Positions 3,756 through 25,296 of a stretch of 30,305 nucleotides of DNA are shown here, piece after piece. The stretch is from Fragilaria crotonensis (Eukaryota > Bacillariophyta > Fragilariophyceae > Fragilariales > Fragilariaceae). The first letter of the stretch is position 1. Each line of letters starts with the position of its first letter. The notes under the pieces are model-generated. The model had not been told where the DNA came from. It was given only the letters and a program-made list of their open reading frames with translations, and searched no databases. The DNA is taken from positions 1 to 30,305 of the forward strand of contig JAKSYS010000722.1 in NCBI GenBank assembly GCA_022925895.1, written 5' to 3'. Position numbers and translations under genes: made by a program.

Positions 3756-3885
3756 TCTACTAGTGCTTTTGGATGATTGCTCCGCGTTCTGAATTCTTGG
3801 GTTACTACCTGTCTTCTGTTCACGAAATGTTAGGTGCCTCTATAGCAAGTGTTTGTGGCATGTTGTTCGAAATGTGGCTGTTTCG

Positions 3886-5112
3886 TTATGCACTCGGTGC
3901 TCCGTGGGTGCGTCTTCTCGTCGCCCCACAACGACGTGGCGCAGACTGTCTCTCCTCTACTTGAGTTGGGCTCTTGTTCCTACTACTGCTGCCTTGACGG
4001 GTATAATGCTGGTCATCGCGCATGGTCCTGGAAGGACCTGGTTGGCGGTTCAAGGCAGGAGGAGAAAGAGGAGGGAGAGCGTCTTTGGACTTGGATCGTG
4101 TTGTTTTTGATTCCGAATTGGTTTGACCTTTCCCCGATCCCTTGTCCGTGGAGAGTTTTGGTTTTTGAAATGTTGGGGAATCTGCCCACGCCACCACTTC
4201 GTCAGGGTTAAGTTTGCGTGCAGAGACCCTGATGCGGTAAACTAGGGTTTCGCCAGGTTTTGGTACTACCGGTAGAGGTGGTTCCTGTTCCTGTTCCTGC
4301 TGCTGCTGTTGTTGTTGGGGACGGTCAAGTTGGCGCGCAGAGACGCGGATTCTGTAAACATGATGTGTATCATTGGTTTTCGGAACCGGAGGTTGCTGAT
4401 CAGGATGCTGCTGCTGCTGCTGCTGATCATGATGGTGCTGCTGAACACGCCGCTCTTGTTGCTGCTGCTGATCATGCGGTCCCTGTCGTTGATGCTGCTG
4501 CTGATCATAATGCGGTTCCTGTCGTTGTTGCTTTACAATGTAGCATGACGGAAACGCCGGTTTCGTGACCGCAGTGGTATTGGTAGTCGTGGTGGAAGCT
4601 TGAGACTGCATTGACGATTGACATGGAGTCACGTCAGGTAGATCCCACCACGATGGCAGGATGGATTCATCATGACCATGTCTGTCCCGCGGCGACGACG
4701 ACGATGATTTTGTGGCTTCAAAAATGCTTTGCAAGCAATACGTGTTTCGGTTCCGACCATTGCGTCTCAAGAGTCGTCGACGCATTTCAGGAGTGACTAG
4801 GTTCATGTCGACAAGATCGAACCATTCCTTTCTTGTTCTTGAAGATGTTGTTGTTGGTGGTGGTGATGCACGAATTGCCATGTTTTCGGCTGGATGAATG
4901 TTCATGTTCTCAACGTCGTCGCAAACGTTCGTCAGAGTGGCTGTGGTTGTTGCTAAGACAAGATGATACTCATCATCACCACCACCATCACCATGGTCCT
5001 GGTCATCATCATCATCATCATCGGTAACGAGTGCAGAAGAGATTGCAGATCCAAGATCCAATAATCCTTTACATTCGTGATCGTCCCCGGTAGTTGTTGC
5101 TGTTGTTGTGGG
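3886..5112 (-). pseudogene. 3' half of a host gene for a Q/H/D-rich protein with two YRIRVSAR repeats; split by the transposon nest
   Basis: Reads leftward from the transposon junction at 5112 to the stop at 3886, about 408 codons, with no frame break. Order: Thr-rich joint, HECKGLLDLGSAISSALV, an Asp/His/Gly-rich run, then EWFDLVDMNLVTPEMRRRLL, possibly a folded helical part. After it come SWWDLPDVTPC, a long Gln/His-rich stretch (4270-4520), and two near-copies of a short motif, VYRIRVSARQLD and VYRIRVSARKLN, about 40 residues apart. A Ser/Lys/Arg-rich basic tail ends the protein. I do not recognise the family; disorder and basic and acidic tracts would suit a nuclear or scaffold protein, but that is a guess. 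The open frame runs on into the transposon LTR and meets an ATG at 5163, giving a 17-codon foreign start. Its 5' half is at 24693-25296. Confidence 0.75.
5108..5112. repeat. Target-site duplication of the outer Copia element, left copy
   Basis: GTGGG directly precedes the LTR 5' end (TGTTGAAG) at 5113. The matching GTGGG at 24688-24692 directly follows the LTR 3' end (TGCAACA). A 5-bp duplication is typical for Copia integrases. Confidence 0.93.
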
Positions 5113-5173
5113 TGTTGAAGAAAGACGAATCGATGCACATGATTCCGCGCCTGCTCGCAACACGTCGCCTCTG
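5113..5173 (+). repeat. Outer Copia 5' LTR, first 61 bp
   Basis: Identical to 24364-24424, the start of the 3' LTR. It ends with TCTG, which is the left copy of the nested element's target duplication; the rest of this LTR resumes at 12212. Confidence 0.95.
5170..5173. repeat. Target-site duplication of the nested Copia element (TCTG), left copy
   Basis: TCTG here and at 12208-12211 bracket the nested element. The uninterrupted 3' LTR has a single TCTG at 24421-24424, which proves the duplication. Confidence 0.92.
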
Positions 5174-5435
5174 TCAGTGAAATCTCCCGCAAGTGCGGCG
5201 AATCCGCCATTGCCGGAGATTGACCCTTAACAATATAACAATCGACAAGAAGCGGCATGCAACTTGATCAATTATAAAAAGAGTGAGCAGATCTAGAATC
5301 TAGTTCCAAAACCGGTCCCACCATATGGACCAACAGGTTATCCGTGCGTGCGCGTCAGCAGTCCTCCACGTCATCGTGGGACACGCGCCTTGTATGCTTG
5401 TCCGAATATCCCGCACTCATGACAGGATTCATTCA
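5174..5435 (-). repeat. Nested Copia 3' LTR
   Basis: 262 bp, reads as identical to 11946-12207. Contains TATAAAAA on the plus strand near 5273 and TTTTTATAATTG on the element's own strand. Confidence 0.93.
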
Positions 5436-5446
5436 GTCCCCTCGCA
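5436..5446 (-). other. Polypurine tract of the nested Copia element
   Basis: On the minus strand GCGAGGGGAC abuts the LTR start TGAATG, where plus-strand DNA priming occurs in LTR elements. This is a short purine run, so the support is positional. Confidence 0.6.
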
Positions 5447-5887
5447 CTAGGCATCACAGACAACTAGTTCGACTCTTAAATCCGCCATGCAGAGGCCGGC
5501 CATCATCAGCTATTCTTGGTGGTTCCACGTGTCATCACATGTACGTCCACCCATCAGTTCAATCTGTGGTTCTGCACCATTGCATACATCCACATGACGG
5601 TGGTTCCGCGCCTTGCGTACATCCACCTAGGGGATAAGTGGTTCCATAATCATTATGTACTTCCACTTGCATCATGTCCGTTTTGGACACTTCACATGTC
5701 TGTGTTATGTCCCTTTTGGACACTTCACCATGGCACACATGAGAGCACAACTCTCTTAGTCGCGGTCCCCGGAAGACACTTAGTCAGTTCATCTGCTCTA
5801 AGTTGTTGCCTCAGTCTTCCTCGGCAATCCACACAAAACCAACCGCTAACGTACTTCGCATTTGTCGATAATGTATGTCACCGCCTT

Positions 5888-7160
5888 CAGTCGTTTACTT
5901 CACAACCAGGGTCACTGCAACCTTTGCAGCCACAAATTCAAATCTAATTCGTAAATCAGATCTTTGTTTGATTCAACCATGTATCACACCAACCTGCTTG
6001 GTTTGTGTTGACATGGCAAATCATCAAAATCAAGCACTCCTGACATCAGGTAGTTACGTCTGGTTACACAGCAGCATTGCTGATAACAGAGCAATACTCC
6101 ATCCAGTCATATAACCAGAAGCATGTCAAGCTTAGCTCCGCCTCGTCGAAGGCCACGCTCAACTGATTGTACCATTTCAGGTATTCAAAGACATGGAAAG
6201 CACGGTCATGATGTCCCCTCCTCAGTGCAGCGAGGAAACGCAACAACATTGCAACGTCCACAGAGATACCGATCCAACCAAATTCACAAGTCCAATGCAA
6301 TACGCTGATTCAATCCTGGAACAGATCACACACTTGGCAATCCAACTCTGGGTGGTATCAATCTCATTACATAACCATCTCTCATTATGATCAACACTCT
6401 TGCGCTCAGATGTTCACCAATCTCCTCAAGTTCACGTTCAATTTCAGTTGCACCAAGGCCAAACATCACTACCATCTTTACTTAGTTCGTTTGCCTGTTC
6501 CATTGATCGATTTCTTGACTTTGGTTTTCACATAAGAATCAAGTTTGCTTTACACATCCGTTCCTCAAGGTAGGCTTTGCGGGAAGATAGTCCATCACAA
6601 CTTGTGACTCACTATGTGGGATGCAATGAGCACCATTCACACAGCGTAGGAAATACTTTCAGCACGTCCCCATTCAGCTTAACCCTTGGTCTCATCCACA
6701 TGTCAGGATCTTCATTACATATAAAGACTTCCCCATACTGTGGCTGTGGTCCCAACTTCGGACAACATTCGACTTCAAACCAAATGGAACACGAACAAGC
6801 AGTAGCACCCAACAACTAACTTTGCCGCACCCAGCTCATGCCTTGCAGCTGCGTATATCTCCTCCAGCATTGGAGCATCCAGTCATGTCCCTTGCACATC
6901 AGTAGACAGGACATTCAAACTTATCTTCAACATTGAAGACTTCATTCAGTGTCGCCAACGTGGATGCAATCCTTTTACAGCCACGCGACACAATCGATCT
7001 GGTGCCCTTTGGCAACCAGACTTGCCGTTCTTGTCAAGATCATCTCGACATCAAAGATCATATGACAGCCAACATACTTGTGGAACTTCAGCATGACACC
7101 ATTGTCAATTAATTCGAACGCTGATCGGATGCACTTCATCTCCAGCTCGATTGCCTGTCC
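5888..7160 (-). pseudogene. Decayed Copia reverse transcriptase/RNase H of the nested element
   Basis: Read right to left, with frame changes between blocks. At 7156-6995: EMKCIRSAFELIDNG, GCHMIFDVEM and LTRTASLVAKGHQID, which correspond to the start of a Copia RT (HMIFDVKM...TRKARlVAgGH). At 6960-6640: a remnant of the YGLKS block (VPFGLKS), then EDPDMWMRPRVKLNGD. At 6300-6120: VDVAMLLRFLAALRRGH, HVFEYLKWYNQ and AFDEAE, the segment just before RNase H. At about 6010-5888: CHVNTNQAG stands where FVDADHAG is expected, then FEFVAAKVAV. The RNase H Asp is replaced by Asn and no YVDD motif was found. The protein cannot be functional as it stands. Confidence 0.86.
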
Positions 7161-10100
7161 TCAAGATTGGTCCCCATTCATTGAACTTAAGGAGCATGTG
7201 TCAAAGACCTTCTAGCACAATTCCAAACATGCAGCTCCATGCCCAATGTCTGGCCTTGACCATTAACAGAATCTGATCCTCCATGCGCAAGACCTTGTAA
7301 CCACCAAGGAATTATAGACTCATTTCCACAACCCTGTTGGCAACATCGAACTCCGCAACTTAGACCAGACCTAACTCTTCAATTCCATCAATTTATGGGA
7401 CGACCGCAATCGTTGGCTCATCACAGCATTTGACTTTCAGTTCCCAACCTTGCATTGTATTGATAGGCGGCCTGGTCTCCCCTGACATAAGTATGCCCAT
7501 CACTCTTTGACGGCTTATGCTCAGTCTGCCATTGGTCAACCATCACCCACAACAACACAGAGCAGCCTCACTCCTCCGTTAGACGTATAAATAGAAACCG
7601 CACCTGTCAATCCACCTGGGACACATAGTCACTCAGATAGCATACTAAGACATAGCACAATGATTACTTGTCAATTGCTTGACCAACATAGCCACGCTTC
7701 ACCCTATGGCATGCGCTTTCATAGCCTCTCAGCCTTGGGCAACAGCGCCTGTTGAATTCATTGTGATTGTTGGACTCTAGGGGTGTGGCCATCAGTCTCC
7801 TCCTTGGAGTCATCCATGTCCCCAGCTTCCAAACAACTTCCGTCTTCACCATTGAAGAACTCAATAGGATCCTTCAGCATGGAGTCCTTTCAATACGGGT
7901 CCATGTCCTCAGCTTTGAGGCATTCCCACCTTTTGGAGCAAATATCTTTGTCCTCCAATCTATTGAGCAAAAGCTTGGCAATTGGGTTGGCAAGATCATC
8001 TTCACACCCATTCCAAAAAAAAAAACTTTCAAACAACATCTTCACCAGTTATAGTCACCGGGGTACAGAAGGAATGCCAAAACTTCAGCAACTCCATCCA
8101 ATCCACTGACCAAACAATTGAATCAGACATCCTGGATTAAATCCCACTTGGGTCCAGCTCGTCCCCATCAATGACTTCATTGGAGTTGTTGCGTTCCCGA
8201 TACCATCAGCAGGTTTCTTGGCGCCATCACTTTGTTTTCTGCCCCTGCACCAAATTGTTTCAGTGCCATGGAGCATCAGTTCTCAAGATTCCAGCTTAAA
8301 GACTTTGCATGGTTTGGTTGAAGGCTGTTGGGCACCATCAGCTGTTCAGGAGAACTGCCAACTGACTTTCCAAGCTGCCCATGACCCATCTTCCAGCGCA
8401 TTGTCAGCTGCAACTGCCCAAGGGATACCCGTTCATTAGGTAATGACATCAATGCAAACACAGGTTGAGATGGGCGCATCCTTGACCGCTCATAGGTGCC
8501 TGCGTAGCCAATGCCATGTCCCCAGACAGGTAACACATTCAGAATCAATCGGAGTTCCAACAGCCATGGAAACCAGTAAACAACCTGACCACATTTCTGA
8601 TGCACTTCCTTTTGCCCAATACGTCAGTCTGAGTTGCCACTTGCAACAATTTCTCAACAGCAGGCCAACTCCCCACTGTCCTGACGGAACACCTGGTGTT
8701 AGTATAGATTGCTCCTTGCTCACCGATAGAACAAATAACTTTTGGCTCTTAACATCCGGCAACAAGTAGACAACTTTGCCTCTATGCCCAGACAAGCCAT
8801 CTCCAGCGACATCATTAACTGCAAAAATGCGCCCACAAAACGGTCCCCTAGAGCCATCCTCCTGACCGGTGTAATCACACATCAAACACAGCAATTCAAC
8901 CGCAGAAACCAACCTTGGTGCATTCCGCATATGATCAGTTGCCAACAACATTTCAGCAACACACATGCTGGAAATACAAATCTCCTCCTTTTTGGCAAAT
9001 CAATCAAAGTAGGAATCACAGAACATCTGTGAGATCAATGCAACAAGAGCTAACAACTCACGCATAGTGACAAAGTGCCATTCAAGGATATGGAATACGC
9101 AACATTGCGGTTGGATAAGGTAATGCAAGAACTTGGCATCAAACTGGTCAGGTACATCCATGACTAGTGACATCATTTGCACAATTGAGTTGGGGGTCAG
9201 CAGAGTCACATAACTCAGTCCCCATAGTACAGAGCCTCATGACATTGAGGATGTACTGTTTGTCCATTCTCAGGGTAAGTCCACATATTCGCAGCCGGGG
9301 CGATGGAATTCTCCTGTATGGGATAATGTTCACCATGAAAGGTGCACAGTGTTCTGACATCCTTTGTCAGAGACAAACAGAGCATTGCTTCTTGCAACAC
9401 GTTTGCCTGTGTGAGAGTCAAGTTCACTAAAAACAGTGATCAGTAGAACATGGCCCTGCCTGCAGATCATGCGGTTCTCGTGGCTTCAAATGTGCCTTAC
9501 AAGAACAGTTCATACTCTGCCAATCAGTGGCAAAGCTTCTTCCAGCATTGGAAGTCACAGTTTTGGCGCTTAGTCCTCCTCAAAGGTTCATCCTCCTGAG
9601 AATCTGCAGTTGCAGCAGCATTGTTACTTGCATTGGACTTGCCTTTCACATCCTTCTTTTTTTTCATCACAGGCCTGTTTGGCATGGGCCTTGCATAAGG
9701 CTTCAAAGTGTTGTATGCCTTGGTGGAGAATTTCCAGAGTTGCTCACAATCTCCCTTCTGGCTGCCTTCACCCTCACTTCAGTCTCCTATTCACATGCTT
9801 GGACTACCATTCTTGTACGTGTCTGCCAGCCTTGGCAATCTCACAAGCAACAGCTAGAGCCTTGATTGCACCACACAGTAGCTCATTGAAGTCTGCAAGG
9901 GAACCAGTCACTTCTTCAACTATGCCATTTCTGGCTCCTCCAGGAAATGCAACACATTATGCTCCTGTTGGTACCATCCTGAATCCATTCTTGACTGACC
10001 AAAAGTGTATCATCCTTACCCCTGAACAAGACCTCAGTAACAATCATTGCATACTGGGCAGCAGCAGTCATTGCATACTTCTAAGTCCCTCTGGTAGCAG

Positions 10101-11771
10101 TTGCAAAATAAGCCGCCCCCCAAGCCAAAGGCACTGGAGACCTGCACATCCATTGTACATTCCATTGGGGAACTAAGCAAATGGCCAACCAGCCAGGTTC
10201 CTCCACAACAGAAATGAGCATCTGTCTAGCACATGCCTGTCAGACATGCAAGAACATCTTGGTAGTCCAACATGGGCGCAACAGCAAGGCCATCATCAAC
10301 CAAACCAGTTGCCATGTCATTACAGATACTTCACTGTTGCCATGGGTGAACATGTTCCTTTGGAGTCCCTGCAACAACACACATTTGTTAATCAGGACAA
10401 GGGGTACACGGTTCCATCCACTTCAGCCAGCTCAGCATTGAGTGTAGCATTGGTGGTTCCTTTGTTCCATCCCATCTTCTTGGCCAAGCAAGTCATGAGA
10501 ACATCTCAGAATGCTGCACCAATCAGCACATGGGGACAAACAACCGGGGACAGGATGATTGTTGACATCAACATCAGCCACCTTGGGCCTCCACCCGGTA
10601 GAAACCATGGTCCTATAGTCAAAATCGAGGAGAGACAGGCTAGTTAGTAGGTTGTATATGGTATAAGTACCCAGCACCTCAAACAGTCCACACATTAGAA
10701 CATTGAAGCCCAAGCAAGGAGTAAAACAAACAGGGAATGACCGGGGATACACCATGCTGGTGAGAGGAGGAATTGTTGATAGTTACCAGGTGTGCGGGAA
10801 AAAATGCGGCATCCCGTGCAAAATTGTGAACTCCATGCCCAAAAATGCACTCTTGGCAAGGTACGTGGAACTCGGTATGTTCCTTACGCGGAAACGCACT
10901 ACCATTCATCAGTCTTGCCGTGAAACTCGGTATGTTTTGTACGCACAATCGCGTTACCAATCGTTCGTTCCACCATTCCAAAATTTTATCCGTGAATGCC
11001 GAGGCCAAACCGCCTAAGTAATACTTCAACCTCAACGTGCTCCTCGCTGGCACACGATCGTCATTCAATTTTCGACTTAGATGACACACAGACCAATCGT
11101 GGTTCGAGTACGTCAGCGCGAAGAATCTCGTTTTCACACGACCGCTTACTTAAGGAATCTTCAGACCAATCGTGCGTATGGTCACACGTCGGTCGTACAT
11201 CATCCGCACATTTTGGTCACACTTAGGCGACTTCCGGATCAATTTTGAAATTGACCTGTCTGTGTGAGTGCGAACGTGTACATGTTGAAGTAACACGAAC
11301 GTCCGGTACATACGTGGCGGATTCTGTGACATTTGTCACTCGTGTACCGCGCTAAGTAAAAAAACAAACGAGCTCTCACAACGACCATCGTTGTGCTCGT
11401 ACGGTTCTCACGTTCACACGTGCACCCTTTGCACACACGTCAGTGGGCATTGTCCATACGTGTACGGCCATCGTACATATATCCAAATGAGCCAAAGAGC
11501 ATAGTAAAATAGCACACTTTGCTAATGTGTCCGGTATACACTAGTCCCATAGGGACAATACCAAACCTGACCACCTAAGTAGGCTCAATAAAGCAATTGT
11601 ACTTAGGGCATCGCGTACCCATGACGCGCCACATCATGCATGACTAATTTTAGGAAACTTTTCCACGGAATTTTGCCTTGATGAAGTTGGTCCTTGTGCT
11701 TTCCTGTCAACATTGACAAGCACATCCCCACCATGGGGATTCTGGCCTCCTGCGCTTCTGGTTTGAACCAT
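7161..11771 (-). pseudogene. Decayed gag-protease-integrase part of the nested Copia element
   Basis: By position this should hold gag, protease and integrase. A possible N-terminus is an ATG at 11771 starting MVQTRSAGGQNPHGG, open for 45 codons. Further down the minus strand are short stretches with coding character, such as ATLNAELAEVDGTVYP (about 10455-10400), DMATGLVDDGLAVAP (about 10320-10270) and RNAPRLVSAVELLCLMC (about 8925-8875), each ended by a stop or frame change. I could not recognise a protease DSG or integrase DDE motif. The stretch 10700-11630 shows the least coding signal and may include foreign DNA. Confidence 0.5.
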
Positions 11772-11932
11772 AGCGCCTATGGTGTCGTCACCATCATCGT
11801 CAATTGCCGCCGCGCGCCAAGTTGTGTGACCAACACAACAATGATGGTCGCATTTGCACAGAATCAGCAATCATGCTCGGATTGATCAAGTCCTCGCATC
11901 ACTCACCAATGCAGCTCATCTGCAAAGCATGT

Positions 11933-11945
11933 GGGTCTGATAAAC
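11933..11945 (-). other. Primer binding site of the nested Copia element
   Basis: On the minus strand GTTTATCAGACCC lies directly after the LTR. It matches most of TGGTATCAGAGCC, the site complementary to initiator tRNA-Met used by many Copia elements. Confidence 0.65.
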
Positions 11946-12207
11946 TCAGTGAAATCTCCCGCAAGTGCGGCGAATCCGCCATTGCCGGAGATTGACCCTT
12001 AACAATATAACAATCGACAAGAAGCGGCATGCAACTTGATCAATTATAAAAAGAGTGAGCAGATCTAGAATCTAGTTCCAAAACCGGTCCCACCATATGG
12101 ACCAACAGGTTATCCGTGCGTGCGCGTCAGCAGTCCTCCACGTCATCGTGGGACACGCGCCTTGTATGCTTGTCCGAATATCCCGCACTCATGACAGGAT
12201 TCATTCA
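11946..12207 (-). repeat. Nested Copia 5' LTR
   Basis: 262 bp, reads as identical to 5174-5435. Followed at 12208 by the TCTG duplication and then the rest of the outer 5' LTR. Confidence 0.93.
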
Positions 12208-12211
12208 TCTG

Positions 12212-12474
12212 GACGAAGTAAGCGGTAAGGACCATGCCAGTAGAACCACGTGGGCAGACGTAGTAAAGGGACATGTGGCCGAAACGAAGCAAAAGCTGAA
12301 AGTAGAAAGTAAAGGATTGCGCACGAGATCACTTTCTCGAAACAATCCTGTTAAGTAGGACCGAAGTTTGTTTAGCAACTTCCGACTATTTTTCAACATC
12401 GGTTGATCCCCTGGAGATAGACTATACGGAGTTAAACGCTCAACGTATATCTAGGAAGATCTACTTCTGCAACA
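12212..12474 (+). repeat. Outer Copia 5' LTR, remaining 263 bp
   Basis: Identical to 24425-24687 by eye, ending CTTCTGCAACA. Together with 5113-5173 it restores the full 324-bp LTR length. Confidence 0.95.
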
Positions 12475-12499
12475 TTGTTTCGAGAAAGGTTCGAACTAG

Positions 12500-12616
12500 A
12501 TGGAAGAAGAGAGATCGGTTGACGAACTCATACCCGACCAAGTGCACATACGCACCGACAACGGAACAAACACCTGGAGGGCCCCGAACAACCTGGAAAT
12601 ACAGACGAAGCCATAA
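12500..12616 (+). CDS. 38-codon leader ORF overlapping the gag start
   Basis: ATG at 12500, 26 bp after the LTR, opens MEEERSVDELIPDQ and stops with TAA at 12614-12616. The last A of the stop is the first base of the gag ATG (TAATG). This is either a real upstream ORF allowing termination-reinitiation, or the true start of gag broken by a mutation. I cannot choose from one copy. Confidence 0.45.
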   Translation: MEEERSVDELIPDQVHIRTDNGTNTWRAPNNLEIQTKP

Positions 12617-12979
12617 TGAGCAGCAATAACAGCACAGCCGGAGATACGAACGTGAGTGGTTTGACCACAGAGACAGGCAGAAGCGGAGGCAGAGCGGGAC
12701 GCGGTGGACAGCGGAACCGTAGCGGAAGAAGCGGCAGAGGCCAGCAAAGCGGGCGAGGAAGCCACCGACCACCAAGAACCACAGGTTTTAAAAGAACGAC
12801 AACCGAGATGAACGGCAACGTGTTCGAGTGTTATGACGAGCAGACCGACCGGCGACAGTATGCAAAGACAGTAGAAGCCCTCGAAGGGTACGCGAAGAAG
12901 AACCTCAAGTATGCCGAGGACCTTGCAACCTTATTTGCCACGGAGATGAAACTCCCCACACTCGAGAAGCCCACATCTA
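12616..12979 (+). pseudogene. Gag, N-terminal part of the outer Copia element
   Basis: Opens MSSNNSTAGDTNVSG, then an RGG/SGRG-rich basic stretch (residues about 21-50), as in RNA-binding capsid proteins. It continues AKTVEALEGYAKKNLKYAEDL to LEKPTS at the insertion point. The frame then enters the TIR transposon and stops at 13008. Removing 12980-19658 with one TA copy rejoins this frame exactly to the gag C-terminal part at 19661 with no lost base. Confidence 0.88.
12978..12979. repeat. Target-site duplication of the TIR DNA transposon (TA), left copy
   Basis: TA here and at 19659-19660. Because the inverted repeat can be extended outward by CTA/TAG, the alternative is a CTAAGGG... terminus with an AT duplication at 12975-12976 and 19662-19663. 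Both readings keep gag in frame. Confidence 0.6.
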
Positions 12980-13040
12980 AGGGTGCCAAAACTAAGTACC
13001 ATAGTTGATACAAGAATTTTTTCTCATATGTATTGGAAAA

Positions 13041-13112
13041 ATTTCAGGATTCCCAAATGTAGTTCAGGATTCCTGAAGTTTTGTTCAGGTTAACTTATTT
13101 AGTTCAGGATTT
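13041..13112 (+). repeat. Left subterminal TTCAGGA repeats
   Basis: Four copies of (G/T)TTCAGG(A/T)T at about 13043, 13062, 13083 and 13102, spaced about 20 bp. One reverse copy (CCTGAGC) lies near 13178. Confidence 0.7.
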
Positions 13113-14445
13113 GGAAGTTTGCAGTTTCCTCATTTTTATGAAGAAAATTTTTCACTCTGAACTACTGCAGTATTATTCCTGAGCTTTTTTCTTCATAATT
13201 TCGACATCAATAAAAATGCTGGTACTGTATGCGCTGTTTACGATGTACTGGAGCATGGTGTATTGTAGATTGTGTATTGTGTACGGAGTGTTGCTTCTGT
13301 GCGCCATACAGTATACGAGTACAGTAATACAGCTTTTTACAGTTTCTGGCATACGGTATTCGGTGCAATGTTCGGTGTTCTACAGTATTGTTTACAAGCA
13401 TGGTGCACATTTCATGGTCTACTGTAGACGGTCTACGTTCTACCACGAAGTATGGTAGTATGGTTTATCGCGTCTATCGCTCACTGGGTTATATGGTAGT
13501 AGTATGAAGGATGGTGGTGTATATTTGTTTGTATTGTGTATGCTTGTTGTGCATGGCACCAGGCGTTGCGGTGTATCGTATGGTGTGCTGCATGGTTTTG
13601 TGTATCAGCATTTAGTGGCGTAGTGGCGTACTACAAGCCCTGGTGGTATGGTTCATACATAGTACCGTACGTTGTTGTGCGTTGTGTGTTGTTTGTGGAA
13701 CGGAGTCTATCGTACTGGAGTACAGTCTACTAGTCCTTCTATCTTTTCTGGTGCGATACGGTCAGTTTTTATGGTGGTACTCCGAGTACGTACAGTTCTT
13801 GTGTAGTGTACTGTCTATAGTGCATTTTCTTATGGTATGGTGGAATACGGTATGATATGGCGCGGTTTATGGTGTCGTGTACGGTCATACCAGGTACTGT
13901 TTATTAACGGAATGGTACTGGTACGGTGCTTCATGTACATGGTAAGGTGGTGTATTGCGTACTGTAGCTACTCGTATGACAAATGATGCCAAGTGTCTGC
14001 GCGTTTTACACCGTTCTTGCGCATGCGAGCGATCCGAAGAACGGCATTCCGTACAATTGTACCAGGTATGAATACACAAGTACTTCTGGTTTGTTCGTAG
14101 AGAGAACATGATACTACGCTGTAGATCTTACGTAAAAAGGTATTGTAGGTGGAATATGTCATATACACAGATTTATTCTTTCATCACCAATACCAGTGCA
14201 TGCTGTACGTTTCTACTGGCTTCGAAAATGCAAACTCATGCAGCCATGGTATTGCGCTTCGTAGAACCCTACCTGTGAATTTTTGTACGAAGTATCACAT
14301 CAATTCGTTCGTTGTTTTGTGAACTCCACCACTTGCTGTCACCCCATATTGAATACTCCATTCTTCGGCACCTTCGCCCCTTCTTCCTCTTCCCACCAAG
14401 CACACTTTGCTCTCCTTGTTGGTGAGTTGTTCCTGGTGATTGTTT

Positions 14446-14480
14446 GAGTGTTGATTGATTTGTTCAATCAATCAACACTC
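14446..14480. repeat. Perfect 13-bp hairpin
   Basis: GAGTGTTGATTGA (14446-14458) and TCAATCAACACTC (14468-14480) are exact reverse complements around a 9-nt loop. The loop side TCAATCAATCAA is itself repetitive. No flanking duplication was noticed. Confidence 0.8.
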
Positions 14481-14528
14481 ATGATGAGTTTTTGAGGTGC
14501 TCCTGTTGTGTGGGTACTGCCTCCTACG

Positions 14529-15983: not shown

Positions 15984-16907
15984 TCAGAAGAAGTGAATGA
16001 TGCTCGCTTGCCACCTTAAGCTTTGTCGAGTAAGGTCATCATGGGCACTGTGTGATAAAAGTGTTGTCGCTGATGCCGACACCACTCCTCCTATCACATC
16101 AGATGGAGAGCCATGATCTACATCCACTCTTTGTACAAAGGGAAGCAGTTTCTTCCCATTACAAACTGAGTTGATTAGGGCATCAACGTTTTTGGCACGT
16201 GAGAGTCCACCCACTGGGTTGTAAGAATAATTATCAGCAGATGCAGAGCGTGCCCACTCCAGAACTTCACCAAAAGTGTAGTTGGGTGCATTGGCATGGT
16301 CCAGGATCTTGAGGAGAGAAACAGTGCGTTTCTGATCGGTAGTATACATGAAGTTGGAACAAAATGATGGGGCTTCCACATCTTCATCAAGTGCAGAATT
16401 GCTGGTACAGGTAAGAATGTTTGGGTCATCACTTAACACGGACAAATCATCACTTTTGTTGCAATCCTCAATATCCTCACAAGAAGTGCTTTCAACTTCC
16501 ACACCATTGCCAGCCGGAGACTGCAGAAGGTTGTACTGCAGAAGGTTGTCTGTGCCAACAAAATCCATTCAGGGATCATTCACCAAATGTCACCTTAAAA
16601 GGGCAGCAGGCCTTTTGTTACTTGTGCATGTGACATTCCCATCCTCATGAAGACGGCGACGGTGTGAAACAGAAGCACCATGTGTTGCTGCAAGGTGTGA
16701 TTTCTTCACAATGAAATTATAGCACCCGATGTTTCTATCAATATGCTGTGTATATGCTGCTTGATTGGAAAATGGTTTCTTGTTGAACTTCAGGCAGAAG
16801 GGTTTTGACAGAAGAGCAGGGGTGCCTTTGAGGACAACATTTTGAAGAGGACAAGTGAAGTGAACATGAGATGTCAAAAGATGACAGGGCACAGATTCAC
16901 TGCACAC
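15984..16907 (-). pseudogene. Truncated N-terminus of a large diatom transposon protein (Plavaka/CACTA-like?)
   Basis: Two frames, read leftward. The first (16907-16590) has FCLKFNKKPFSNQAAYTQH then DRNIGC, a worn C2H2-type finger with one Cys lacking. The second (16568-15984, 194 codons) opens MDFVGTDNLLQYNLLQ, has an acidic Ser-rich part, then LLKILDHANAPNYTFGEVLEWARSA, NPVGGLSRAKNVDAL and LLPFVQRVDV. I recall the NAPdYaFgeil.WArsA / GGLSR.kNVD / LLP series from large transposon proteins in diatom genomes, where a zinc finger precedes a transposase-like body of several hundred residues. Here the body is missing: after SDVIGG the frame leaves the pattern and stops at 15984. The 5' end is cut by the hAT MITE at 16908. 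Confidence 0.62.
16900..16907. repeat. 8-bp target-site duplication of the MITE (CTGCACAC), left copy
   Basis: CTGCACAC at 16900-16907 directly before the left TIR, repeated at 17319-17326 directly after the right TIR. Eight bp is diagnostic of hAT transposition. Confidence 0.9.
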
Positions 16908-17318
16908 CAGTGCATGACATCGGGGCCCGTTAGCCGCAGCCGGCCGGAAACCGCGGGCTGGCCGTGATTTGGGCGGCTGCGGTCCGTGTATTTCTGTCCC
17001 GGCTGGTTCCAGCCGGCTCCGGTCGATTCCTATCACTTTTCGGCCAATCGCGGGTAAAGGGCGGATCACCTGTCATTTTTCACGGGTACGGTGGTTGCTG
17101 ACAACGTACTGTCAGTACAGTACTGTGTACTATGTTTGTACTATGTACTGTACTTCCTTACGACTGCGGCCGGGTCCGGGTACGGGCAGGGACTGTCGGA
17201 CTGCAGACAGGTACGGCCAGGCTCACATATTGGCATACGGCCGGCTGCGGCAAAAGCCTCTGCAAAAATCGGCCGGCTGCGGCTTCGGGTACCGTTTTAT
17301 CTCAGATGTCATGCACTG
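16908..17318. mobile_element. hAT-type MITE, 411 bp, GC-rich
   Basis: Perfect 14-bp terminal inverted repeats, CAGTGCATGACATC at 16908-16921 and GATGTCATGCACTG at 17305-17318, flanked by the 8-bp duplication. The CAG start fits hAT. Inside are subterminal GC-rich repeats: GCCGCAGCCGGCCG near 16933 and its reverse complement CGGCCGGCTGCGGC near 17241 and 17271. The centre has GTACTGTA words. No coding capacity is seen. Its GC content is well above the surrounding AT-rich transposon. Confidence 0.88.
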
Positions 17319-17588
17319 CTGCACACCAGCACAGAATTTTGGGAAAGCATGCATTCAAATTGTACATGTACTTTTGGTACATTTTTGGTGTATGTAAAAA
17401 TGAAGGGGGTGTGGTATGAATTCAAAATTCAAAACCTCTGCATGAATGTGTAGAACCTACCTACGAACTTGGTACTTGGTACAAAATTCAAATGGTCGCA
17501 AAATACTATCCCACAAAAGGATTTCCAGTGTTCAAAATTTGGTGCACCATCAAAAGTTTTTCAACAACAAGCAAGCACAAATACGACC

Positions 17589-19109
17589 ATGGCATCAATG
17601 CCACAGGAAACAGCAGCAGGCATCACTGCCTTAAAGCCCAGCTCTAGGAAACAAAGGAGAGAGTTCATAAAGGCGTGCAACAAGTGACCACAGATCCCAA
17701 TGATCTGATTCAAAGTGACAACAAGGAGGAGGAGTTGGTGCCACAGAAAATGGATGCAAAACAAGGATGGAAGCATGCATACGGAAATCCACCATCCCTA
17801 CCTTCAACTATTGGAAGCATGCATACAAATCCACCATCCCTACCTTCAACTATTAAAGTCGGGAATCAAGTGACAGCCAACTAACATCATCGGTTCCAGG
17901 GCTAAGCAGCTTAATGGACATGAGCATGACGGAAATCTCAGAAGAGAATCAAATCAGTATGATCAAGACTTGCATGAAAAAAACACGTGTTCTCTATTTG
18001 GAAGTTCTATCAAAAGACTATCATTCTCATTTCAGTGAAGATGAGAAAACACTTTGTGGCTTTATCATGAAGTACACAAACATTCGAGGAACCCAAAACT
18101 GGTGGCTTGGGATGTGGAGAATAGTTGTAAAAACACACACTGATCTTGAACAATGCAATAAAAAACATGCAAATGAAATTCAAAGGTGAGGATTTGAAGT
18201 GGATGTACTTTGCCAAGTCCGAGCATACTCACACCCACTTGCTTTCAACATCAAACACCTTGCATTCAGAGGATTCACTTCCCATTTAGGAACACATGGA
18301 CACAGCCTGTACAGTGGATGCAAGGATGAAACCAGTTACCTCCTCAAGATGAGGGATAACATCTGCTACAATGCCCAAATCATAGACACTTACTCGGCAG
18401 CAGCAACTGGAATAACATTATCAACAACATGGAGAACCACTGTGCAACAACTGACAGGAAAGTATGGAGCAAGAAAATCCTGTCCATAAGTGATGAAGCA
18501 TTCATTTTGCTGTGCCTGATCAACTATGGGAAGAGGTGGTTTGCCGAATTAGTAAAGACAGAGAAAATGGTAAGTTTATCCGAGTGGTTTGTCACAGAAC
18601 AAACAACAAGGAACTGACTTGCTTTGTTATCACTTGTTGGAAACAGCAAATCGGTACATGGACAGATGAGGACAACAAAAACCTACCCGTAAGTTACACT
18701 ATGATAAGTGAATGAAAAAACCACATCCTAAATTCTGACCAATCTTTTCTCATGTTCCGCAGCCACCACTTTACACATTCTCCAGGAACAAGGGTGCTCA
18801 TGATAATGGGGGAGGCTGTGGTTGGTCACAGGCTGGAATGAGGAAATACGATGAATTATACATGGCCATCAAGAATGATAGAAAGAAATCAGCCCAAACA
18901 TTCAACCAGGAACTACTAAAAATGTTTCTGTCGAGAAGGAAAAAGAGTCTGGCCAGGGGGTCAGGAAACAATTTGATGACAAGGGTAAGAAATGCCCACA
19001 CAAGCGCATGGATGTATTTGACGACAACTCTGATGAGGAGGATGATAACTACTCCAGGCATCTTGCTTCTGAACTTGTCTACAGTGAAGTGAAAGTGGAG
19101 GCAGTTTAG
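17589..19109 (+). pseudogene. Second gene of the TIR transposon, decayed; unnamed GGWS-type accessory protein
   Basis: Starts MASMPQETAAGITALKPSSR and continues through several frames: EFIKACN, TTDPNDLIQSDNKEEELV, then MTEISEENQISMIKT, FKGEDLKWMYFAK, VWSKKILSISDEAFILLCLINYGKRWF. After an apparent intron near 18569 (donor GTAAGT) comes a short exon ending NLP. A second intron runs from about 18690 (GTAAGT) to the CCGCAG acceptor near 18763. Then PPLYTFSRNKGAHDNGGG, CGWSQAGMRKYDELYMAIKNDR, and an acidic tail VFDDNSDEEDDN ending in TAG at 19107-19109. The (G)GWS..G..r..EL...vk.DR motif is one I remember from unnamed proteins of algal transposons. I do not know its function; an accessory or DNA-binding role is a guess. 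At least four frame changes. Confidence 0.55.
17769..17854 (+). repeat. Tandem duplication, 44 + 42 bp
   Basis: GGAAGCATGCATAC...CCACCATCCCTACCTTC...CTATT occurs twice back to back (17769-17812 and 17813-17854). The copies differ by a 2-bp length change. It lies inside the decayed second gene of the TIR transposon. Confidence 0.8.
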
Positions 19110-19299
19110 AATTGATCAGACACTTAGTATGAATAGTAGAATGCTTCATCAAAGCCACACGAATAGGCACATTAACACTAATATCCAACAAAAGTTAAAA
19201 TGTGTGACATGTATGTCAATTATATGAACAATGTCAGCTCAGAACTACTGTGGTGATTACTTCATACACACTACACAGGAAACTTCTTCTTTTCGGATG

Positions 19300-19512
19300 T
19301 CAAATTCAGGAATTGAAATTCATGATCACAAATGAAGAAGTGGTATAGTTCAGATATTTTGAGTCCCAAAGCTCAGGAATTCCACTTGGAAGCTAGTTAA
19401 AATGAGTCATTGAATTTCAGGATTTGAAATTTTGGAGCTCAGGAATACAAAGTATGAGATCCTATGCAAGAGATGAAAAATTCAGGAAAAATAAATTTCG
19501 AGTTCAGGAAAT
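19300..19512 (+). repeat. Right subterminal TTCAGGA repeats
   Basis: Copies of (T/C)TCAGGA(A/T) near 19304, 19372, 19415, 19437, 19480 and 19503, plus one weaker GTTCAGATA near 19348. They keep the same orientation as the left cluster rather than being inverted. Confidence 0.7.
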
Positions 19513-19660
19513 ACGAAACCCACTTCATACACATGATGTACAAGCTCTTTAGTCCTAAGTTTTTACCTGTATTTTAGGTAAACATTATGAGCAAAAAAAT
19601 ATCATATCAAAGATGATTGGTTTTTCATATCCAAGAGCCGACTTGGTTTTGGCACCCTTA

Positions 19661-20512
19661 GATGCATGAGACCTGGACCAGACGCAGACGAGACTGACCT
19701 CGCAATCTGGAACGAGGACATACGTGACTACGCGAAGCGCAAACGAGTGCTACGAGGCAACCTGGCAGCACTTCAGGCCGTCATCTGGGGCCAGTGCAGC
19801 GAAGCCATGAAGGCTAAGGTGAAGTCCCTGGACGGATACGCAGCCAGTGCGAAAGAAGACGACTGCGAATGGTTGCTCAACAACATCAAGGCGATCACGA
19901 TGCAGTTCGATGCAAAACACAACGGGTACATCTCCATGCTGGACGCCACCGCTGCATTCCTCAACTGCAGACAGCAGGGACAGAGCGCCGACAGCTACTT
20001 GGAGGCCATGAAGAGCCACACCGATACGATTGAGTACCACGGCGGAACGCTGGTACTGAATCAAAGCTCGCGCCGGAGACCAAGGACGACGGAACCATGT
20101 ACACCGCCGAGGAAAGGGCAAGTTGCACGTGACTGCACCCTGGCCGCCGCTCTCATTCGCGGCTCAGATCCCACGAGATACGGAACCTTAGTGGCTGATC
20201 TTGCGAACCAGTACAGTAAAGGTAAGGATGAGTATCCCACCGACATCACGTCCGCTTACAGCTTGCTCGTGAACTACCGGACGCCTGTGAACGCCACGTA
20301 CCGTGCCCGGAACAGCGCCGTCGCCAGCGAGTCCAGCACGACGCCTGCGCAAGCGAGCGCTGCGAACGAAGGAAGCGCCATGACTTTCGCACAGCGATCC
20401 ACGAGCACGCCAGGTACGAATGGCGTGACGCACGAAGGATCACGTGCTACAGGTGCAACAACACTGGACACTATGCATCGGACTGTCCGACGAACAGGCG
20501 AGCAGCACCACC
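19661..20512 (+). pseudogene. Gag, C-terminal part with zinc knuckle, outer Copia element
   Basis: Continues gag after the transposon: RPGPDADETDLAIWNEDI, AVIWGQCSEAMKAKVKSL, WLLNNIKAITMQFDAK, YLEAMKSHTDTIEYHGG, SDPTRYGTLVADLANQYSKG, AYSLLVNYRTP. This is the UBN2-type capsid of Copia gag. The zinc knuckle CYRCNNTGHYASDC (20445-20486) fits CX2CX4HX4C exactly but lies in another frame than the capsid; the switch is near 20395. Between about 20053 and 20125 a neighbouring frame reads TESKLAPETKDDGTMYTAEE, which fits gag better than the open frame does. A pair of compensating indels is therefore likely. Confidence 0.86.
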
Positions 20513-22640
20513 TCCGGAACCACCCTCCTGCAGTACGGACTCATGTTGGCGCAGGGGACGACCGCAATCGACCCATCGTGGATATTGCTTGACTCGCAAT
20601 CTACGATCTCGGTTTTCAGGAACCCGACATGCTCACCAACATTCGGCCGAGCGACCGTACTCTCAGGGCGGTTACGAACGGAGGGTTCCAGGACTCCACG
20701 CTCGTGGGTGATTTCCCAAACCTCGGACCCGTGTGGTTCAATCCGGCGTCCATAGCGAATATCCTCTCGCTCGCCGACGTACGCAAGGTGTGTCGTGTTA
20801 CGATGGACACGATAGCCGAGCCTGCCATGCATGTCCACCGCCTCGATGGCTCCACCATGAAGTTCGTCGAGCACGAGTGCGGGCTTTACGTATATTTTCC
20901 GAGTAATAGTAGCAATAACGTTGGTGCCTATACTCTGGTGTCCACGGTGGCGGAACAGAAGAAACTTTTTAGTCGGCGCGACATTGCGAACGCCGACATG
21001 GCACGCACGCTCTACCGCGCCATCGGCCGCCCCAGCGAGGCCGAATTCCAGCGTATCCTCGACAGTGGGTGTATTCGGAACTGCCCCGTCACTTCTCTGG
21101 ACGCCAAGCGTGCGCTCACGATCTACGGGCCTGACATCGCAACCCTCAAAGGGAAGACCACGCGCGCCGGTGTTGCACCGCGAGCCCCGAATTTCACTGC
21201 CGTGGCTCTACCCCCCTCCGTGCTTGAGCATCACCGCGACGTCACCCTGTGCGTGGATTTTTCTTTGTGCAAGGGCACATTTTCTTCCACACCATCTCCC
21301 GCAACATTTTCTTTCGCACGGTGCGTCTCGTGTCCGACCGCACACGCTCCACCATCCTGCACGAGCTGACTACCGTCTGCCGCACGTATACCTCACGAGG
21401 TTTCAACATCGTCGCGATCCATGGCGATCACGAATTCGCATGCATCAGGGACGACCTTCACCCCGTTCGCGTCGATATTGCCCGCCGACAGCCACGTCGG
21501 GGAGGTCGAGCGTTCCATACGTACTGTCAAGGAGCGCCTTCGAGCTTGCGTGCACGGTTTGCCCTTCACGCGGCTCCCAAAATTATGATCGAGCACATGG
21601 TTGTCGATGTCGTCCGGTGCCTCAACATGTTCCCTGCTCCCGGCATCTCCGAGTCTCAGTCCCTTTCCTTGGTAACGGGTGTTCCCCCCCCTGACTACAA
21701 CCACCTCCGTCTGGAATTTGGCTCGTACGTGCAACTGTTCGACAACCACGAACCGTCCAACACCATTCGCGCGCGGACCCTTGGCGCCATTGCCCTTACC
21801 CCCACCGGTAATGCCCAAGGCGACTATTTTTTTCTCTCCCTTGCCTCTGGTTTCCGCGTCGCTCGCCACCGCTGGACCGCTCTACCCATGACTGACACGG
21901 CCATCGCTCGCGTTGAGGCCCTTGCGAAACTCGAAGACCAACCGCTTATCCAAGAGACCGGTCTCGTCGTCGAATGGCGCCCCGACCACCCCGTCCCCGA
22001 CGACGAGTACGATCGGGACTACGTCCGCCCCGCTCGTGTCCCCACCGACCCCCCCCTCGCCGCTGGCGATTTCTCCTCCGTCGACGCTTCCGAACTCGCC
22101 GACCTACATGCTGACGCTGCTGCTCACGATGTTCCTCCCCCCGTTCTCACGGTCCCGGACCAAGGAGCGCCCATGCACCAGCGACAGCATGACGACGACG
22201 TAGCATACGACGCAGACGCTGCCGAGGACCGCGACGCAGCCCATGGCGCCGACGCCGACGACGATCGCGACGCATCCTATGGGGCTGCTGATGACGCCGA
22301 CTACCAATCCGGTGCTGATGATGACGACTACCAATACGGTGCCTATGGAGATGAAGGACGCCAAGATGGCATTCCCGAAGATGACATCGAAGCCGAGGAC
22401 GCCGTCGACGCCGAGGACGACATCGACGCTCACATCGAGGAGCCTGAGGACATCCCTGACGCTGCCGGGTACGAAGCAGGGGAAATCGAGGGCGACGACA
22501 TTGATGAAGCATCGTCCCTGGTCGGAGGTGCAACCAGCACAAACCAAGGAGCGCAACGGGTGCAATATGACCTCCGAGACAGGTCCAACCGGATCACGCA
22601 TCGATTCCGAGCCGCCATGGATGAGCCTTTCAGCAATAAA
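20513..22640 (+). pseudogene. Protease, integrase and acidic linker of the outer Copia element
   Basis: Protease: SWILLDSQSTISVF (Asp at 20591), then a frame change near 20628 to MLTNIRPSDRTLRAVTNGG. Next come ANILSLADVRKVCRVTMDT and ATLKGKTTRAG, as before Copia integrase. Integrase core: VTLCVDF near 21243-21261 (first Asp), frame change, IHGDHEFACIRD near 21418 (second Asp), then GEVERSIRTVKERLRA (about 21507-21554, catalytic Glu). The Glu block lies in a different frame from 21480 to about 21586, flanked by two compensating changes. All three DDE residues are therefore present but not in one frame. Residues coded by 22040-22560 form an Asp/Ala/Tyr-rich acidic linker, ending near VQYDLRDRSNR. 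Confidence 0.88.
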
Positions 22641-24571
22641 TCCTATTTCCCGCCGACCCAATTGCTATACTACGACATTTTCAAGCACATCATGACTGGC
22701 GACGACAACGTTGTGCGAGGACACACAATGACGCAAATGTCAGCAAATGCAGGAATAAAGAAGCGGCCGGAGAGCCGAAGAAGCCTTACTGACCGAGTTT
22801 TCGCAGTTCGAGGATTTGAACGTGTACGAGCCCCTCGACCCGAACAATCTAACCAAGGAGCAGAAGGAGGGAGCCCTTCGCGCAATCCCAACTATCAAAG
22901 AGAAAAGGTGTGGAAAGCTCAAAGGGAGAACTGTCGCTGACGGACGAAAGCAGAAATCACTGTATGACAAATCGGAAACGGCCTCCCCGACCGTGGCCAC
23001 CGACTCGCTCATGATCTCCGTTGGAATCGATGCGCACGAACAGCGTGACGTTGGGACATCCGATATAGCAGGCGCCTACCTAAAGGCCTACATGAAGGAC
23101 TATGTGATAATGAAATTCACGGGAATATCGGTGGACATACTCTGCGAGATGAATCCAAAATACATTCCATTTGTGACGATCGAAAACGGAGTCAAGGTGC
23201 TTTACGTGAGGCTAATCAAAGCGATCTATGGTTGCGTACAGTCCGCACTGCTATGGTACAAGCTCTTCTACTCGCACCTGCAAAGATGGGTTTCGTACTG
23301 AACCCATACGACCCATGTATAGCGAACAAGGTCATCAACGGAAAGCAGTGCACCATAGCATGGTACGTGGACGATATGAAAATTTCCCACGTCGATGCGA
23401 ACGTGGTATCACAAATAATTGAGCAGATTGAGGAGCGGTTCGGAAAGATGACGGTCACCCGAGGGCGCGAGCACATTTTCTCGGCATGAAAATTGTGTAC
23501 AAGCAAAATGGAACCGCAGAGATAACCATGCGCGACTATCTGGAAGAAGCAATCGCAGAATCGGGTATGAATATACGCAGGTCGGCTGCCACTCCGGCGA
23601 GACGTGATTTATTTGAGGACGACCCCAACGCTGCGCCCCTAGACAGAAAGACTGCTGAGGTATTCCACAGTGTCGTGGCCAAGCTCCTATACGTATCGAT
23701 CAGAGCACGCATGGATATACTACTGGCAGTGATCTACCTTTGTACGCGCGTGTCGAGGAGTGACGGACGACTGGGAGAAACTAAAGCGCGTGCTGGAGTA
23801 CCTGAATGGGACTCTACACTACAAGTACACGATAGGAATCGATGACGTCGCAAAGATCAGATCGTGGGTTGACGCATCATATGCGGTACATCCCGACATG
23901 AAAAGCCACACAGGTGGTTTGTTGTCATTCGGAACAGGAGGTTTGATCTGCAAGTCGGGAAAGCAAAATTAAACACAAGGAGCTCCACCGAGGCAGAAGT
24001 GGTTGGAGCGAGCGACTATTTGCCGAACATCATTTGGGTGCACATGTTTCTGGAAAAGCAGGGTTACAAAATGAAAGAGAGTATTATGGGACAGGATAAC
24101 GAAAGTGCGATGAAACTAGAGAAGAACGGACGCATGTCAGCAGGCCAAAAGTCAAGGCACATCAACATACGATACTTCTGGATCAAGGACAGGACAGAGG
24201 CCAATGGAATCCACATCCGACATTGCCCTACGCTTGAAATGCTGGCCGATTTTTTTACGAAGCCGCTCCAAGGAGCCCAGTTTCGACGTTTCCGCGATGT
24301 CATTTTAGGATACCGTCACGTTGACTCCCTTCGCCGCGACCCCAATGCATCTATCGAGGAGCGTGTTGAAGAAAGACGAATCGATGCACATGATTCCGCG
24401 CCTGCTCGCAACACGTCGCCTCTGGACGAAGTAAGCGGTAAGGACCATGCCAGTAGAACCACGTGGGCAGACGTAGTAAAGGGACATGTGGCCGAAACGA
24501 AGCAAAAGCTGAAAGTAGAAAGTAAAGGATTGCGCACGAGATCACTTTCTCGAAACAATCCTGTTAAGTAG
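22641..24571 (+). pseudogene. Reverse transcriptase and RNase H of the outer Copia element; C-terminus inside the 3' LTR
   Basis: QMSANAGIKKRPES leads to NVYEPLDPNNLTKEQKEGALRA, LKGRTVADGR, YDKSETASPTVATDSL, DIAGAYLKAYMKDY (first catalytic Asp region) and AIYGCVQSALLWYKLF. WYVDDMKISHV has the YVDD box at 23364-23375. FGKMTVTRGREH, VVAKLLYVSIRARMDI and LKRVLEYLNGTL follow. RNase H: WVDASYAVHPDMKSHTGG (Asp at 23871), STEAEVVGASDYLP, QDNESAM (Asp at 24095), then CPTLEMLADFFTKPLQGAQF, the usual end of a Copia RNase H. Frame changes occur near 22830, 23290, 23485, 23760 and 23970. The last frame passes the LTR start at 24364 and stops at 24569-24571, adding a 68-69-residue basic tail coded by LTR sequence. 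Confidence 0.92.
24347..24363 (+). other. Polypurine tract region of the outer Copia element
   Basis: CGAGGAGCG directly precedes the 3' LTR start TGTTGAAG. It is short, and the position rather than the purine content supports it. Confidence 0.5.
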
Positions 24572-24687
24572 GACCGAAGTTTGTTTAGCAACTTCCGACT
24601 ATTTTTCAACATCGGTTGATCCCCTGGAGATAGACTATACGGAGTTAAACGCTCAACGTATATCTAGGAAGATCTACTTCTGCAACA
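24364..24687 (+). repeat. Outer Copia 3' LTR (uninterrupted)
   Basis: 324 bp, TGTTG...CAACA, the intact reference copy against which the split 5' LTR is recognised. It contains the last 208 bases of the pol frame. Confidence 0.95.
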
Positions 24688-24692
24688 GTGGG
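24688..24692. repeat. Target-site duplication of the outer Copia element, right copy
   Basis: GTGGG, pairing with 5108-5112. Confidence 0.93.
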
Positions 24693-25296
24693 TGATGGCA
24701 AGGGCGAAGGTGACGGTAATTCTGTTGGCAATCCTGCCAGAGATGATGATAACGGTGTGCTCGGAGGAGCGTTTCGGTTGGAATCCTCATGACTGTGATT
24801 GGCGTGTTGATGAGTGTTTGTGGCAGCAACAACAGTATCCTCAGTATTTTGTGCCAGAGTGTCTGTGTCGAATTGATCGACTGCCGGGAGTCGTCTTCAT
24901 ATTCATGTGACGCATGGATTCTGTTCGTCGACCACGACTACGATCTCGATCACCACGTCCACCATCATGATTCAATGATCGATGCTGCGACTTTTGTATC
25001 ATTTGTGATTGTGATTGCGATCGTGATAATGCTCTTGACTTTGGACTGCAAAGATGATTGGCAAGTTTCTGGCGTTGTTTAGTCGGAACGGCCGGTTGTT
25101 GTAGTTTCGAATCAGCTGCAGCTGCAGCGACAACATTGGGTCCAAGACCGTCGTTTGGTGGTACCTCATCATAGAATGGGTTGAAATATGCGTCTCGTAA
25201 TGGCTCGTATCGCACGGCAAGGCTCAAGTCCAATTTATCGCTGTCAAAGTTGTCATCGTCGCTACAGTAGTGCTGCTCGTCGCGTGGAAGATTCAT
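24693..25296 (-). pseudogene. 5' half of the split host gene
   Basis: Starts at the ATG at 25296 (MNLPRDEQHYCSDDDNFDSD), with LRDAYFNPFYDEVPPNDG, an Ala run, and an Arg/Ser/Asp-rich part (GDRDRSRGRR) to a stop at 24841. Just before that stop a neighbouring frame takes over: DTDTLAQNTEDTVVAATNTH and on to LPTELPSPSPLPSP at the transposon edge. That second frame is the one that continues without a break into 5112 on the other side once the nest and one GTGGG are removed. The switch near 24850-24900 is either a 1-2 base indel or a short intron ending at the CGACACAG there. Joined, the gene would be about 1.83 kb, about 600 residues. No family was recognised. Confidence 0.72.

Follow-up and report, generated by a model that had tools for sequence, protein, structure and literature searches.

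Haplotype-specific insertions of Copia retrotransposons (CoDi) are known from the diatom Phaeodactylum tricornutum, Blackbeard being one example (PMC2806351, PMC8147415). In the available parts of the first of these reports, Copia insertions are described that occupy a single haplotype and leave the other undisturbed, as are insertions into other transposable elements; in those of the second, such insertions are often confined to one haplotype, causing long-read contigs to split, and nesting of elements is mentioned too. The window considered here, a stretch of 30,305 nucleotides from a different diatom, Fragilaria crotonensis (contig C694, positions 1-30305), carries a Copia-type long terminal repeat (LTR) retrotransposon within a putative host gene. 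As in the P. tricornutum cases, so far as these excerpts go, the insertion is found in one haplotype, the alleles are on separate contigs, and nesting is involved; here, however, the heterozygous insertion is itself a stack holding two further, probably later, elements. Nested and haplotype-specific Copia insertions in diatoms are already known, and the nest is ordinary in kind.

The DNA transposon of the stack is most readily compared with PlavakaB elements of Agaricomycotina, for which the excerpt available gives target site duplications (TSDs) of 2 or 3 bp, ends of the form 5′-CATC..GATG-3′, namely CATCA..TGATG, and an H(3)H motif (PMC12730594). Judged against that excerpt, the family found here shares a Plavaka transposase match, 2-bp TSDs, CATC..GATG ends, and an H(3)H motif in the transposase frame. 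It differs in its diatom host, in an extra plus-strand frame that is only weakly of the Ulp1 type, in a C(2)C motif that was not located, and in its ends, which are CATCT..AGATG and not CATCA..TGATG, so that it is filed as Plavaka-like and not as PlavakaB. No title on Plavaka in diatoms or stramenopiles, nor on a diatom CACTA transposon with Ulp1, was found in the literature searched, which is no proof of absence.

LARD-type elements are large non-autonomous LTR elements with direct repeats, a short TSD, and several kilobases without detectable coding; the LTR-like element nested here differs in ending TC..CA, not TG..CA, and in showing by eye no clear primer-binding site. Miniature inverted-repeat transposable elements (MITEs) of the hAT type have 8-bp TSDs, short inverted repeats, and dispersed copies. 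One insertion of such a MITE has become a passenger of the 6.7-kb Plavaka-like subfamily described below; no search for an autonomous hAT partner was made.

The assembly searched comprises 62.1 Mb in 881 contigs; it was searched by query, and selected stretches (L numbers) were fetched for reading. It bears a diatom mark, the silicon transporter family, with 19 matches, 18 of them above the cut-off; among 14 control genomes, a match was found in one, and none exceeded the cut-off.

The Occupied and the Empty Allele

The locus is very likely the product of three insertion events on one allele, with the MITE as a passenger and with the other haplotype never having received the outer element. The first-pass annotation had seen four levels of nesting. 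Successive insertions into one host locus, each with its own duplication, were indeed found, but the count of four events was not upheld, as the MITE came with the transposon. The host locus and the outer element include the following features:

3889-5112, minus strand: host gene, part downstream of the insertion; an open, low-complexity Q/H-rich frame
24693-25296, minus strand: host gene, part upstream of the insertion
5108-5112: left TSD of the outer element, GTGGG, a single copy in the empty allele C245
24688-24692: right TSD of the outer element, GTGGG, from the junction reading
5113-24687, plus strand: outer Copia-type LTR retrotransposon, contents included
5113-5173, plus strand: outer 5′ LTR, first part, from the LTR comparison
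12208-12474, plus strand: outer 5′ LTR, second part, from the LTR comparison, starting with a copy of the TSD TCTG
24364-24687, plus strand: outer 3′ LTR, 324 bases
12528-12537: leader gap point, a 10-bp overlap where the window is without about 250 bases kept in all four siblings fetched
12616-12973, plus strand: start of the outer gag, which resumes at 19667
22816-23298, plus strand: RVT_2 part of the outer pol, whose coding is divided among several frames in the window

An allele without the nest, with one GTGGG and joined flanks, had been predicted, and it is present in the same genome as contig C245. The flank 3900-5112 corresponds to C245:46485-47701 and the flank 24693-25700 to C245:47702-48713; the two are adjacent in C245, where window base 5112 is joined to 24693 with a single GTGGG. 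The outer Copia element is heterozygous: one haplotype is occupied and the other is empty. A second contig of the occupied locus, C512, is 98.07% identical to window positions 11611-30305 and ends within the nested element. The borders 5112/5113 and 5173/5174 are seen in C694 only, and the 12207/12208, transposon, and 24687 junctions are common to C694 and C512.

The interrupted host frame is a putative gene of low complexity, with no Pfam domain in a Pfam scan and with matches in the genome only in C694 and C245. A single frame of 205 codons spans the insertion point in C245; the frames on either side are broken there as well. In the window, positions 24838-24875 have five bases fewer than C245 and C512 (within about 36 bases), and a stop at 24841-24843 enters the host frame. 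Since both other contigs carry the five extra bases, the stop is most likely a consensus error. The continuous host frame expected after removal of the layers is therefore not that of the window itself, in which the stop intervenes; a frame across the site is seen in C245.

The limits of the outer element and its GTGGG duplication, as first annotated, were borne out to the base, and so was the expectation that removing the inner layer would restore an LTR of the right length: the joined 5′ parts amount to 324 bases and are identical to the 3′ LTR. Four siblings with two LTRs each were fetched (C819, C116, C111, and C83), every one with its own 5-bp TSD, so that a 5-bp TSD and TG..CA LTRs characterize all five copies; more distant LTR matches (74-77%) lie outside this sibling set. 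RVT_2 is matched in the window with E 6.5e-9 and in a long sibling frame with E 2.7e-18, and by these sequence features the element is filed as Copia-type. Continuity of the gag frame, also claimed earlier, was found in part: the frame runs through the transposon site in siblings L004 and L007; in L005 and L006, a small indel immediately precedes the site. In those columns of the outer pol region that have a sibling majority, the window and C512 differ from each other at 82 indel and 20 substitution columns, and just five columns, all indels, separate both from the siblings. The breaks in the pol frames seen in the window mostly do not recur in C512 and thus carry little information on decay.

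The LTR-Like Element Nested in the 5′ LTR

5174-12207, plus strand: nested LTR-like element of 7034 bases with LTRs at 5174-5435 and 11946-12207, a 4-bp TSD, and no coding detected

The nested element is flanked by TCTG at 5170-5173 and 12208-12211, and its LTRs are identical in the window (262/262). Each of three siblings has a different 4-bp TSD (CTGT, ATTT, and GAAT), and all four copies end in TCAGTG..ATTCA. The genome holds 31 full-length matches to the nested LTR at 97% identity or more, the two of the window included, which indicates a young and numerous family.

This layer had been annotated as a Copia element. Its bounds, its TSD, and its location in the 5′ LTR stand, but the Copia assignment is not supported: no RVT_2 was detected, comparison with the outer pol gave at best a chance match (E 0.92), and the ends are not TG..CA. 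In 64 of the 76 frame pieces of at least 50 codons, no Pfam match exceeded the cut-off, and the same held for ten further frames, of which siblings contributed four; four weak matches in the nested pieces have E values of 0.025-0.046. The longest frame across the four copies is 279 codons, and small consensus indels could hide a longer one. Next to 5435 and 11945, a reading by eye only revealed no obvious primer-binding site or polypurine tract. The element is best filed, on its sequence, as a LARD-like non-autonomous LTR element, subject to the same reservation about hidden frames and consensus indels.

Two larger relatives were read; they match the nested element in blocks of about 68-80% identity, share no long frame with it, and contain other elements. 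The translated matches to them are short (55-89% identity), the best falling within the first 0.8 kb, where two overlapping frames match simultaneously, and others occur on both strands. These relatives, at C74 and C153, were considered as an autonomous partner and rejected, both holding other elements. They were chosen for their far-apart LTRs and are not a chance sample of nests. They represent two further nests, L030/L031 (C74:46997-60506) and L032/L033 (C153:140136-155714), where the interrupting elements, by labels given by eye, are Copia-like with 99%-identical 557-base repeats and, on the other strand, LINE-like.

The Plavaka-Like Transposon and Its MITE

12974-19664: predicted non-autonomous Plavaka-like DNA transposon with terminal inverted repeats (TIRs) at 12974-12992 and 19646-19664 and TSD CA
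15987-16568, minus strand: remnant of the N-terminal part of a Plavaka-like transposase, 84% identical to the L028 frame over 171 aligned positions
16908-17318: hAT-like MITE, inherited within the transposon subfamily, with TSD CTGCACAC at 16900-16907 and 17319-17326

The TIR of the transposon, CATCTAAGGGTGCCAAAAC, is 19 bases long and perfect, and the TSD CA is located at 12972-12973 and 19665-19666. In all four fetched siblings of the outer element, the site is empty and reads GAAGCC-CA-TGAGACC without interruption. The earlier placement of the transposon at 12980-19658 with a TA duplication had to be corrected accordingly, the TA lying inside the TIR. A Tc1/mariner-type TA element was rejected: the TSD is CA here and arbitrary dinucleotides are duplicated in the family. 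A 2-bp TSD was found in eight of the nine copies: CA in the window, TG, GA, GA, TT, TG, and TA in six siblings, and TA in one of two 12-kb relatives, the other having none. The exact transposon/gag junction occurs in the genome only in C694 and C512.

The 19-base TIR has 111 occurrences in the genome and none in the reversed control. Among the TIR matches listed, 34 pairs were sized: 14 measured 6.69-6.90 kb, another 14 measured 11.8-12.0 kb, and the remaining six had other lengths above 7 kb. The sizing excludes two shorter pairs, on C21 (about 1.5 kb) and on C405 (about 3.4 kb), as well as every end without a partner. One 12-kb relative, L028, has a minus-strand frame of 454 codons that matches Pfam Plavaka with 31.1 bits (cut-off 26.3); no Plavaka match came from the broken frames of L026, the other one read. 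HELLH is present in both, and the C..C motif was not found in their broken frames. In 51 of the 64 frame pieces of the window transposon, no Pfam match was above the cut-off. Weak matches among the window pieces scanned, to CbtA (E 0.0019, 18.7 bits against a cut-off of 25) and to VP6, NapB, LRR, T-antigen, PAXNEB, and two DUFs (E >0.02), were taken as chance. By our own arithmetic, the Plavaka-domain stretch of L028 (about 8580-8948) is outside the parts common to the window copy and the 12-kb form, so the window copy very probably cannot make transposase and would have been moved in trans. Sequence comparison identifies it as a deletion derivative of the 12-kb family.

Both 12-kb elements, L026/L027 (C347:129-12122) and L028/L029 (C69), also carry a long plus-strand frame, of 907 and 832 codons, respectively. 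This frame has a weak GNAT match below the cut-off and an invariant H..Q..C that looks Ulp1/C48-like by eye; part of it has 138 translated matches in the genome, some of them distant (25-30% identity). Against PDB, the 907-codon frame found nothing as a single sequence and, as a profile, only chaperonin matches with E of at least 0.054. Peptidase_C48 was matched in two of five related proteins with a best E of 0.11, so that “Ulp1-like” is a label given by eye only.

The MITE has short inverted repeats (CAGTG..) and dispersed copies. Its bounds and its TSD had been annotated to the base, but as a separate event at this locus it does not stand, the same position being occupied in other transposon copies. 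In six sibling transposons (L013-L018), the right border, ctgcacac, is present in all, and the left one in the four where the exact TIR was found; among the 14 listed pairs of 6.69-6.90 kb, 13 have the MITE at a common offset, 2.3-2.4 kb inward of one end. The shared offset and the shared TSD mean that the MITE arrived inside the transposon. In both 12-kb elements that were read, the equivalent of 16901 runs on to 17331 with a two-base gap, that is, a site without the MITE. None of the 20 longer listed pairs, nor the C21 and C405 contigs, is among the best MITE matches listed. Separate MITEs elsewhere in the genome, five of five read, have different 8-bp TSDs.

Over the MITE stretch, the window and other transposon copies are 84-95% identical, with almost all of the difference in gaps. 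The six siblings differ from the window by 3-8 substitutions in 385-401 bases, a rate like that of the rest of the transposon, and C512 has 23 gap columns in the MITE against the window. The substitutions fit common descent of the aligned copies; the surplus of indels among siblings is without explanation.

Order of Events and Alternative Readings

The sequence of events would have begun with a Copia-type retrotransposon entering a low-complexity host gene on one haplotype through a 5-bp staggered cut at GTGGG. Later, the 7-kb LTR-like element would have entered the outer 5′ LTR through a 4-bp cut at TCTG, moved, for want of detectable coding of its own, by enzymes presumably encoded elsewhere. 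Also later than the outer insertion, the 6.7-kb transposon, already carrying the MITE, would have entered gag through a 2-bp cut at CA, with transposase presumably supplied by its 12-kb relatives. Probably, the inner two insertions are younger than the outer one, and all are younger than the split of the local alleles. The earlier suggestion that several superfamilies had used the same small target finds no special basis: GTGGG, TCTG, and CA bear no relation to one another, and the two sites within the outer element are at depths of 61 bases and about 0.8 kb.

Several observations weigh against this account. The integrase domain was not matched at E<=0.01 in the 1518-aa sibling frame of the outer element, and the transposon copy at C69 lacks a 2-bp TSD (one of nine). 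C364, a pair of 6,898 bases and one of the 14 listed in the 6.69-6.90-kb class, has no MITE; with a 92% end and a match to the frame of the 12-kb family, it is taken as a shortened member of the other subfamily. The MITE differs among siblings by 16-60 gap columns, with hardly any gaps in the flanks. The assembly is noisy, and C512 may represent a third haplotype or a duplicate instead of this allele. Between C512 and the window there are 49 substitutions in the transposon (up to 69, depending on the alignment) but just 5 in the 5.6 kb (5,599 bases) of host flank, a surplus that may stem from repeat copies mixed in the consensus. Finally, the outer element could, in principle, have arrived with the transposon already inside it.

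The last point may be extended to a composite, in which the transposon had entered gag at a donor locus and was then reverse-transcribed with the outer element into the host gene. A junction records the order of sequences, not their timing, and the donor may have been lost or left unassembled, yet the junction is limited to the two contigs of this locus, the four siblings are all free of the transposon, and an RNA of more than 12 kb would have been needed. The composite is thus quite improbable, and insertion after the arrival of the outer element is the simplest reading of the same two facts. Even less credence is given to four independent insertions, with the MITE striking the transposon after it had landed in gag. 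This would agree with the perfect 8-bp TSD that the MITE has in the window, with the other 8-bp TSDs of its separate copies, and with its excess of indels over the flanks; it is hard to reconcile with the same MITE, TSD, and offset recurring in other transposon copies, with 12-kb relatives that show the site unoccupied, and with MITE substitutions no more frequent than elsewhere in the transposon.

It is very improbable, too, that the stack is an assembly chimera or that C245 is a paralogous locus and not an allele. The many private small indels of the assembly leave some room for this, but an exact target duplication is found at every junction, two contigs share three sets of junctions, and C245 is collinear with both flanks at a very low substitution distance on the 3′ side. 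Three insertions on one allele, with the MITE as a passenger, are accordingly preferred.

Age of the Insertions

That the identical outer LTRs testify to recent events was likewise proposed in the first-pass annotation. The outer insertion is indeed recent, but LTR identity does not serve as proof of age. With 0/324 and 0/262 differences, the rule of three bounds the divergence at about 0.9% (our own arithmetic). In C512, the 3′ LTR is the same as that of the window, and the 5′ LTR part differs from it by three indels and one substitution, so consensus noise limits the LTR clock. LTR identity was judged too coarse for dating and set aside in favour of allele divergence.

Downstream of the insertion, C512 and C245 differ by 7 substitutions and 113 gap events in 16,927 aligned bases, and the window and C245 by 6 substitutions in 5,602, some of them absent from C512. 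The mutation rate of P. tricornutum is given as 4.77e-10 per site and generation in the part of the source available (PMC6604790). If this rate holds and no conversion took place, 7/16,927 corresponds to an estimated 4e5 generations or so since the alleles split, the nest being younger. On the other side, the window and C245 differ by 46 substitutions in 1001-3419 and by none in 3420-5112.

Such patchy divergence would fit a loss of heterozygosity on each side after the insertion, in which case the nest could be older than its flanks suggest. This alternative has an appreciable but lesser probability, as it calls for two conversion tracts that stop on either side of a 19.6-kb insertion and leave it heterozygous.

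Neighbouring Genes

The neighbouring host genes encode an RNB-domain protein (2451-3755) and an ankyrin-repeat protein (27605-29276), with frames broken in the window; the latter, by eye, runs on into a DHHC-type palmitoyltransferase.

Significance

It is tentatively suggested, with somewhat less than even confidence, that the locus brings to light an undescribed 12-kb Plavaka-like lineage with a protease-like gene, whose MITE-marked 6.7-kb form, in at least 13 copies, struck a still heterozygous retrotransposon, and that three unrelated mobilisation systems have been active since the alleles split. A single assembly provides an empty allele, the target sequences of elements of three kinds, and part of the order of events, which allows dating against allele divergence and not LTR identity. 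The case also shows that counting the layers of a nest overestimates the number of events if one of the inner ones is an old passenger. Finally, the locus points to Plavaka-like elements in a diatom, a family that may deserve a look of its own.

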